DNA of 64,000 nucleotides from Crocinitomicaceae bacterium (GTDB lineage: Bacteria > Bacteroidota > Bacteroidia > Flavobacteriales_D > Crocinitomicaceae). The notes under the pieces are model-generated. The model saw only the letters and a list, made by a program, of their open reading frames with translations, was not told the origin of the DNA and searched no databases. Below are positions 59,772-61,890 of this stretch, piece by piece; positions within the stretch are counted from its first letter, which is position 1; every line of letters starts with the position of its first letter. The stretch covers positions 62,001 to 126,000 of the forward strand of contig JAQXBM010000022.1 in NCBI GenBank assembly GCA_029252405.1. The letters are read 5' to 3'. The position numbers and the translations under genes are program-made.

Positions 59772-60407
59772 TTGGCAAAATCGGACGATAAGCAATTCAT
59801 AATTCCTTTTGTAGGTTTAAAACAAGGGAGACACGAATTTCAGTTCGATATTACTGATACGTTCTTTGAAACATTTGAATACTCAATTATCCAACAAGGA
59901 GATGTACACATCGACTTTACGTTGGATAAAAAAGATACCATGATGGTAGGTGAGTTTCAGTTGAAAGGGCATGTGAAAGCACCCTGCGATCGTTGCAACG
60001 ATCCAATTGAAGTTCCCATCGAAGGTGACTTTAGATTGGTGTACAAATTCGGAAACGAAGAAGAGGAAGATGAAACACTAGTTGTTGTTTTTCCTGAAGA
60101 ATTTGAAATCAATATTAAAGCGTCACTTTTGGAGTTCATGAGTGTATTGCTTCCATCTCGATCGGTTCACGATGAGGGAGATTGCAATCAGGAAATGCTC
60201 GACTACCTGAATGAATACGTTGTGAATCCAATGGATGAAGACGATGATAATCTTGATGAGTACGATGAAGCCGATGCGGAGCATCAAGACCTTGAAGACG
60301 AGGACTACGATGAGAACGAAGAAGGCGAAGAAGAAGATGATGATCAACCAGACGACACACCAGTCGATCCGCGTTGGGCAGCATTGAAAAACTTAAAAAA
60401 GGATTAA
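59772..60407 (+). CDS. yceD: DUF177 (YceD) family protein, ribosome-linked
   Basis: DUF177 proteins are almost always encoded beside rpmF and are linked to 23S rRNA or 50S assembly. The core contains VHIDFTLDKKDTMMVGEFQL and a CxxC pair in APCDRCNDPIEV, which may bind zinc. The C-terminal 55 residues are extremely acidic (for example DENEEGEEEDDDQPDD) before a short WAALKNLKKD end. The start is a TTG at 59772; no ATG is available upstream in frame near it. It is followed 42 bp later by rpmF. Confidence 0.9.
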   Translation: MAKSDDKQFIIPFVGLKQGRHEFQFDITDTFFETFEYSIIQQGDVHIDFTLDKKDTMMVGEFQLKGHVKAPCDRCNDPIEVPIEGDFRLVYKFGNEEEEDETLVVVFPEEFEINIKASLLEFMSVLLPSRSVHDEGDCNQEMLDYLNEYVVNPMDEDDDNLDEYDEADAEHQDLEDEDYDENEEGEEEDDDQPDDTPVDPRWAALKNLKKD

Positions 60408-60449: not shown

Positions 60450-60641
60450 ATGGCACATCCTAAACGAAAGATCTCGAGAACGAGACGAGACAAAAGAAGA
60501 ACACACGTTAAAGCAGAAGCGAAAAACATCGCAACTTGCCCAACGACTGGACAACCACACTTGTTCCACCATGCACATTGGTATGAGGGGAAACTTTACT
60601 ACAAAGGAAAAGTTGTAGCTGAAAAGGAAGTAGCAATTTAA
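60450..60641 (+). CDS. rpmF: Ribosomal protein L32, zinc-free form
   Basis: L32 of 63 residues ([16 protein letters not shown] at the start). The usual zinc ribbon has four Cys; here the corresponding region has only one ([15 protein letters not shown]), so this is the C-minus form that does not need zinc. Such forms are often the sole copy in Bacteroidota. The gene sits between DUF177 and the remains of plsX. Confidence 0.96.
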
Positions 60642-60667
60642 TTGTTGCTAACTAGTTCTTCATTAGT

Positions 60668-60837
60668 ATGAAGATTAGAATTGATGTACTTGGAAGCAAT
60701 TTCGTTTTGAGGCAGGCCGGCCTAGGTTTGTTCCTTGAAAGAAAAGGCTCTCAAGTGAAACCACGATAACGTTTTTAGGCGACCAAGATCCAATCTTGAG
60801 TGGCCTTTCGTTGTTAAATGATGGTACTAAAACGTAA
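60668..60837 (+). pseudogene. plsX: Decayed remnant of plsX (phosphate acyltransferase)
   Basis: In many bacteria plsX lies between rpmF and fabH. Here that space is only 260 bp. From an ATG at 60668 the frame reads MKIRIDVLGSNF, close to the PlsX start (MKIGIDxxGGDF), but it stops at a TAA near 60767. In another frame, open from 60739, the DNA reads SSETTITFLGDQDPILSGLS, matching the next PlsX strand and its GDQDPI turn, before a stop at 60835-60837. The rest of the roughly 310-residue enzyme is missing. I infer loss by frameshift plus a large deletion. A functional copy may exist elsewhere in the genome. Confidence 0.75.
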
Positions 60838-60900
60838 AATTTTATTCTTGGAAGTACATTCTGACCGTACCAACAAGACGAACAAAGCATACAACTGATT

Positions 60901-61890
60901 ATGGGAAAGATTACAGCTGCAATTACAGGAATTCAGGGTTATTTGCCAGAACACGTACTTTCGAATGAAGACCTTTCGAAAATGGTGGATACCAACGACG
61001 AGTGGATTACTTCTCGAACGGGAATCAAGGAACGAAGAATCATGAAAGATGGTGCTTCTTCTGATATGTGTATCGAAGCAGTAAATGGCTTGTTGAAGAA
61101 GACTGGAAACAATCCAGAGGACATCGATTTGGTAATTGTTGCGACTGTAACTCCAGATCACCCATTCCCAAGTACATCTAACATTGTTTGTGCTGCTACA
61201 GGAATGAAAAACGCCTGGGGGTACGATTTGATCGCTGCATGTTCAGGATTCATTTACGCACTTTCGACGGGAGCTCAATTTATCGAAACAGGTAAATACA
61301 AGAAGGTAATCGTTATCGGTGTAGACAAAATGTCTTCAATCATCGATTACAAAGACCGTACGACATGTATCATTTTTGGAGACGGTGCAGGAGCAGCTTT
61401 ACTAGAACCAAATGAGGAAGGAATGGGAGTTCAAGACTTCATCCTTCGTGCAGACGGTGTAGGGAAAGAGTACCTACTTCAACCAGGTGGAGGATCTGCA
61501 CACCCTGCATCAGTTGAAACAGTTGAAAAAGGAATGCACTATGTTCACCAAGAAGGGAAACAAGTTTTCAAATTTGCTGTAACGAACATGGCTGAGGTTT
61601 CTGCGGAAATCATGGAAAAAAATAACTTGGGAAGTGACGATGTCGATTGGCTCGTTCCTCACCAAGCGAACTTGCGTATTATTGATGCAACTGCAAACCG
61701 AATGGGATTACCGAAAGAAAAGGTAATGATCAACATTCAGAAATATGGAAACACCACTGCAGGAACGCTTCCATTGTGTTTGTGGGATTATGAAAAACAA
61801 TTGAAAAAAGGAGATAATTTAATTTTGTCAGCCTTCGGTGGAGGATTCACATGGGGTGCTGTTTACCTAAAATGGGCATACAATTCTTAG
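60901..61890 (+). CDS. fabH: Beta-ketoacyl-ACP synthase III FabH
   Basis: Starts fatty-acid elongation by condensing an acyl-CoA with malonyl-ACP. The catalytic triad is Cys114 (AACSGFIYA), His254 (VPHQANLRI) and Asn284 (KYGNTTAG). Length (329) is standard. It begins 63 bp after the last readable piece of the plsX remnant and 48 bp before accB, so it heads the fabH-accB-accC cluster, tying initiation to malonyl-CoA supply. Confidence 0.97.

Follow-up and report, generated by a model that had tools for sequence, protein, structure and literature searches.

One of the described systems closest to the present locus is the PlsX/PlsY acyl-phosphate pathway, with which bacteria usually begin the synthesis of membrane lipids; it is present in the congeners with intact genes, where plsX lies at its classical rpmF-plsX-fabH site. 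Further points of comparison are PlsB and human GPAT1, PlsC, and the translation-coupled attenuators with leader ORFs; PlsB is present in Gammaproteobacteria such as Vibrio. We found no paper explaining how phospholipid synthesis starts in Bacteroidota without PlsX, PlsY and PlsB, and nothing specific on PlsX loss in Bacteroidota or on the family of the 385-aa enzyme described below. In the genome of the Crocinitomicaceae bacterium analysed here, in contrast to those congeners, both pathway genes are gone and only a scar of plsX is left. The scar lies in a 64,000-nucleotide stretch of contig JAQXBM010000022.1, the whole of which is referred to as the window (Table 1).

The gap between rpmF and fabH comprises 259 bases, which we read in all frames. 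The earlier note had proposed that it holds a decayed plsX fragment, consisting of a plsX-like start and a second motif in a shifted frame, and had suggested alignment with plsX of a close relative. Such an alignment confirmed the proposal. Positions 60639-60821 match the intact plsX region (L027) of G013, a congener with intact plsX, at 143 of 186 positions (77%, E=1e-32); the match spans 29 nt 5' of the ATG (60668) and the first 155 nt of plsX, and both motifs are present, each in its proposed frame. (G000 denotes the window's own genome and the other G numbers denote relatives.) The local score between the gap and G013 plsX was 119, whereas the maximum among 2000 shuffles was 44, which rules out chance similarity. 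The rest of the gene had been considered lost. This is correct for an internal deletion of approximately 760 bp (about nt 156-914), in place of which 52 unalignable bases are found, but not for the 3' end, because positions 60874-60908 match the last ~25 nt of plsX and the start of fabH (30/35, E=1e-7). The 5' remnant contains a frameshift: the intact gene reads SETRITLIGDQEQILRGLSLLNED, whereas the window reads SETTITFLGDQDPILSGLSLLND in the shifted frame. The gap thus combines significant DNA similarity to plsX at the syntenic site (5' E=1e-32, 3' E=1e-7) with a disrupted frame, as in a pseudogene, and is a scar of plsX. A sequencing or assembly artefact is an unlikely cause, given that plsX is likewise absent from this gap in 12 other congeners and that the plsY locus has also lost its gene cleanly.

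Table 1. Features in and around the rpmF-fabH gap (positions in the window)
Feature	Position	Strand	Remarks
yceD (DUF177), 5' of rpmF	59772..60407	+	211-aa open frame, TTG start; same-place homologues in congeners
rpmF, ribosomal protein bL32	60450..60641	+	63-aa ORF, 92-100% identical in plsX-less congeners
Inverted repeat TCTTCAT-TAGT-ATGAAGA across the old plsX start codon	60657..60674	+	Sole copy in the window, expected 0.01
5' plsX remnant (nt 1-155 of intact gene), frameshifted	60668..60821	+	77% to G013, E=1e-32
Leftover 33-aa ORF from the plsX start	60668..60769	+	Stop 7 nt 5' of the hairpin
Conserved RNA hairpin AGGC[G]AC-C..loop..G[A]GT[G]GCCT	60777..60806	+	Covariance-model match 60776-60813
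Unalignable junction, 52 bases	60822..60873	.	No match to plsX
3' plsX remnant, last ~25 nt including former stop, adjoins fabH	60874..60900	+	30/35 with G013, E=1e-7
fabH, 3-oxoacyl-ACP synthase III	60901..61890	+	329-aa ORF, conserved in all compared loci

The names yceD and fabH are those that we assume from gene order and sequence. Several remnants and some intact loci retain the inverted repeat across the old start codon; its fold is not unusually stable (z -1.0), and no further copies that could make up a regulon are present within the window.

The own genome (4.28 Mb, 99.99% complete) was searched with family, protein and DNA queries. None of PlsX (PF02504), PlsY (PF02660) and PlsB (GPAT_C domain, PF19277) matched anywhere in it, which excludes a relocated plsX, and PF19277 matched in none of 60 genomes, which excludes PlsB as the replacement. 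The genes that flank plsY in G013 (L197) align with G000:C55 at 76% and 75%, and only 23 bp separate them there; therefore, plsY has been cleanly deleted. Since neither a relocated plsX nor PlsY nor PlsB is found, the acyl-phosphate route is, judging from the genome sequence, abandoned and not rerouted. The earlier note had expected relocation, replacement or an alternative acyl-phosphate route to follow from the loss; only replacement now has a candidate. Across the 60 genomes, 29 contain both PlsX and PlsY, 27 contain neither, and 4 contain PlsX alone, such that the co-occurrence pattern holds in 56. The four genomes with plsX and no PlsY match are G025 (99% complete), G046, G006 and G014; missing sequence may account for the less complete ones, and the case of G025 is odd. 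The control genome, Bacteroides ihuae, likewise gave no PlsX or PlsY match.

Within the genus, 13 congeners (G000 included) lack plsX and 21 contain it. In a tree built on pdxA, yceD, rpmF, fabH and accB, i.e. genes of the plsX locus itself, plsX-less and plsX-containing species are interleaved, and the distribution of plsX requires six changes, five of which are forced by supported branches. The plsX-less lineages are G000/G032/G028/G008, G017/G007, G016/G015/G023/G001, G019, G022 and G029. A constraint uniting the 13 plsX-less species in one clade was rejected (p-AU 1.2e-84, for a tree from genes of the same locus and a constrained group chosen by the trait), which rules out a single ancestral loss inherited by common descent. 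Comparison with related genomes, as the earlier note had advised, thus indicates that plsX has apparently been lost about six times in the genus. Because change counts on a tree cannot separate gain from loss, one ancestral loss of plsX and plsY followed by several regains in the plsX-containing congeners has to be considered as well. We regard this as very unlikely, because intact plsX is always found in this one short slot and always contains this hairpin, and family members outside the genus contain plsX; regain would have to bring plsX back into the rpmF-fabH slot several times, each time accompanied by plsY.

The candidate replacement is a 385-aa acyltransferase encoded outside the window (G000:C81:54147-55301, minus strand), one of six PF01553 proteins of the own genome. 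It scores 36.5 bits against PF01553 (cut-off 23), which places it in this superfamily, and no NCBIfam model, TIGR00530 included, matches it. The enzyme is present in 25 of the 27 plsX-less genomes, compared with 2 of the 33 plsX-containing genomes (Fisher p=2e-12, kinship ignored), and, within the genus, in 13/13 plsX-less species versus 1/21 plsX-containing species (G004). Kinship-independent contrasts between enzyme and plsX (5 pairs on supported branches) gave 4-5 concordant and 0 discordant pairs (p=0.06), a number of pairs too small to reach significance. The exceptions are G004 and G041, which contain both systems, and G042 and G058, two members of the same order that contain none of PlsX, PlsY, PlsB and the 385-aa enzyme, and in which a further route must therefore exist. 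The enzyme of G004 may derive from bin contamination. In G004 (L071), G028 (L070) and a Crocinitomix MAG (L099), which are not all close kin, a desaturase-like gene (fatty acid, ~242 aa) adjoins the 385-aa gene, and the two may possibly form a two-gene transfer unit.

In a quick, midpoint-rooted tree of the enzyme, the sequences of the genus form one clade (SH-aLRT 99) within a larger clade containing Gammaproteobacteria (97); the sequences from the order's other families lie apart from them. The genus therefore seems, from this tree, to have gained the enzyme by horizontal transfer from Gammaproteobacteria. The conserved residues include NHRDI..D, LNK.F.V.R, EGR.K.G.D.T and P...SYE..P. Of 106 members, 99 have histidine and aspartate in an HX5D spacing and none has the catalytic HX4D spacing. 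In an AlphaFold model (pLDDT 90.2, pTM 0.88), the best structural match is human GPAT1 (Z 22.0, rmsd 3.9, 302 residues), followed by PlsC and plant GPATs at a Z of about 15; a weak profile match to bacterial glycerol-3-phosphate acyltransferase (E=0.05) aligns the motifs. The enzyme thus shares motif order and overall fold with PlsB and GPAT1 but differs from PlsB in length (385 aa versus >800 aa), in lacking PF19277 and in its HX5D spacing. It shares the PF01553 domain and the fold with PlsC as well; however, it is larger, scores lower against PlsC than against GPAT1, does not match TIGR00530 and has another histidine-aspartate spacing.

On the basis of its occurrence pattern and fold alone, we infer that the 385-aa enzyme is a one-step glycerol-3-phosphate acyltransferase that replaces PlsX/PlsY. 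The two-step route would have given way to this PF01553-superfamily enzyme from Gammaproteobacteria, which would acylate glycerol-3-phosphate directly, its presumed substrate, with a PlsC-type enzyme completing the synthesis of phosphatidic acid. A clean deletion removed plsY, and of plsX only the first ~155 nt and the last ~25 nt are left. Instead, the 385-aa enzyme might be of the PlsC type (lysophosphatidate), or another acyltransferase travelling along, with a different PF01553 protein acylating glycerol-3-phosphate. The own genome has five more such proteins, the fold is common to PlsC, G042 and G058 manage without the enzyme, and the family has members in Gammaproteobacteria such as Vibrio as well, where PlsB is present and another role is possible for them. 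Against these points stand the presence/absence pattern across about six losses, which was profiled individually for the 385-aa protein out of the six, and the stronger structural match to GPAT1 (Z 22 over 302 residues, versus 15 for PlsC), so that we regard this alternative as rather unlikely and retain the one-step acyltransferase as the preferred reading.

Other acyltransferases were also noted. The own genome encodes the lyso-glycine lipid acyltransferase GlsA (NF053697, E=4e-98) and an adjoining 307-aa protein that may be its partner (L064:1270-2091 and 282-1205, respectively, minus strand); therefore, the organism likely makes glycine lipids. In addition, many relatives have open frames of ~1270-1340 aa with a PF01553 domain (e.g. 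G010:C3:794889 and G029:C60:34135), possibly representing fused acyltransferase proteins; in the own genome, all six proteins with this domain differ from them in length.

The scar itself contains more than decaying coding sequence. The second motif (GDQDPIL), which reads SETRITLIGDQEQILRGLSLLNED in the intact gene and which the earlier note had taken for the second strand of PlsX in a decayed fragment, coincides with a conserved RNA hairpin that is internal to plsX and outlives repeated gene losses. Positions 60777-60806 fold as AGGC[G]ACCAAGAT-CCA-ATCTTG[A]GT[G]GCCT (bracketed bases unpaired), and the fold of 60770-60830 is stable for its composition (-16.9 kcal/mol, z -3.0). The hairpin lies inside the intact plsX of the examined plsX-containing congeners and of G034, a member of a sister genus. 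Over 31 sequences, paired cells amount to 93.5%, six pairs have changed on both sides, and covariation is 0.240 compared with 0.149 in shuffled alignments (0/500 as high), also exceeding all slid controls. In 20 intact plsX genes, the 12 codons of the hairpin are, among 302 windows, the one in which identical synonymous codons are most in excess. A covariance model gave a single strong match per genome in G034 and in 33 of 34 congeners (all except G001), at the plsX site wherever the location was compared; a repeated genomic element is thereby ruled out. At the hairpin, no Rfam 15 family reached the gathering score, nor did any match with an E value of up to 5, which rules out a known RNA family.

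The hairpin is kept in 12 of the 13 plsX-less congeners. The exception, G001 (L044), has a 92-bp rpmF-fabH gap, and its clade mates G016, G015 and G023 keep the hairpin. Among the 12 remnants, the identity of the hairpin is 85-94% and that of the start block 74-95%, and the ATG is kept in all; the outer stem and a G-G mismatch are invariant or nearly so, and the following TTT is invariant. If the remnants were ordinary decaying pseudogenes, both blocks would persist simply because the losses are recent, and the remnants of G000, G032 and G028 are indeed still fairly plsX-like between the blocks (identity 0.67-0.77, compared with 0.58 for shuffled sequences). However, decay is not uniform: in 8 of the 12 remnants, the stretch between start block and hairpin is within 0.04 of shuffled-sequence identity. 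Moreover, G017 and G007 show paired stem substitutions although no intact plsX is translated there, and the hairpin is constrained at synonymous sites of intact plsX. Recent loss with plain decay is therefore highly improbable, and selection appears, from these comparisons, to have kept the hairpin through several independent losses of plsX.

As it persists where plsX is gone, the hairpin must serve a neighbour. It lies ~110-170 nt 3' of rpmF whether plsX is intact or deleted, whereas the spacing between it and fabH shifts by several hundred bases. In plsX-less members of other families, the rpmF-fabH gap contains hairpins, most of them with T runs (by inspection), and within the genus the hairpin tail is T-richer in remnants than in intact genes (9.5 versus 7.7 of 15, p=0.003, kinship ignored). 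These three observations favour an intragenic attenuator or terminator 3' of rpmF as the best reading of the hairpin. In the 12 remnants, the frame from the old start ends 7-9 nt before the hairpin in seven and 14 and 29 nt before it in two, and runs through it in three; retention of an open frame over lineages gave a combined p of about 0.01, which, the representative values being hand-picked, is suggestive only. In the mechanism that we propose, the hairpin would act as a translation-sensitive intragenic attenuator that ends or limits transcripts from yceD-rpmF. A ribosome on the plsX start, now that of a short leader ORF (in the window, presumably the 33-aa ORF), would mask the 5' arm and relieve attenuation, and rpmF and fabH-accB could thus be held at different levels. 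As in translation-coupled attenuators with leader ORFs, a short ORF here often stops immediately 5' of a stem-loop whose tail is T-rich; unlike in those systems, the hairpin is, in most species, part of a structural gene and outlasts the loss of plsX, the leader peptide sequence is not conserved, and the likeness covers the leader ORF and the stem-loop but no antiterminator.

A serious rival, sustained by how strictly the sequence of the outer stem is conserved and by the interruptions in the T tail, is that the hairpin is a site of protein binding or processing. On this view, the scar and the replacement of the enzymes would be as described, but the hairpin would be bound by an RNA-binding protein (for example, in feedback on rpmF/yceD or as the target of a regulator of fabH) or cleaved by a ribonuclease and thereby define the 3' end of the rpmF mRNA. 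In all 12 remnants, the outer stem, its G-G mismatch and the TTT after it are kept more strictly than a plain terminator needs, each genome has a single strong copy, and a simple terminator scan did not call the hairpin, its tail being T-rich but interrupted. A site of this kind explains neither why the tails are T-richer after gene loss nor why other families have hairpins with T runs at the corresponding position, and we consider it a real but less probable possibility. The full account, in which a plsX scar, replacement of PlsX/PlsY by an acyltransferase derived from Gammaproteobacteria and a hairpin acting as a translation-sensitive attenuator are combined, seems to us about evenly poised between right and wrong. 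We put forward more tentatively, as falling somewhat short of an even chance, the broader claim that a plsX-internal regulatory hairpin and a short leader ORF were kept in all six deleting lineages (and later dropped only in G001), with each deletion accompanied by the arrival, from Gammaproteobacteria, of one-step glycerol-3-phosphate acyltransferases that belong to an undescribed HX5D family.

For the enzyme, the genus offers about six natural replacements and one specific candidate, with G004 still containing both systems, and the question is thereby directly testable. For the RNA, the hairpin represents an undescribed element located within a lipid gene and next to the gene of a ribosomal protein, and its survival suggests that selection can maintain a piece of a lost enzyme gene as RNA.
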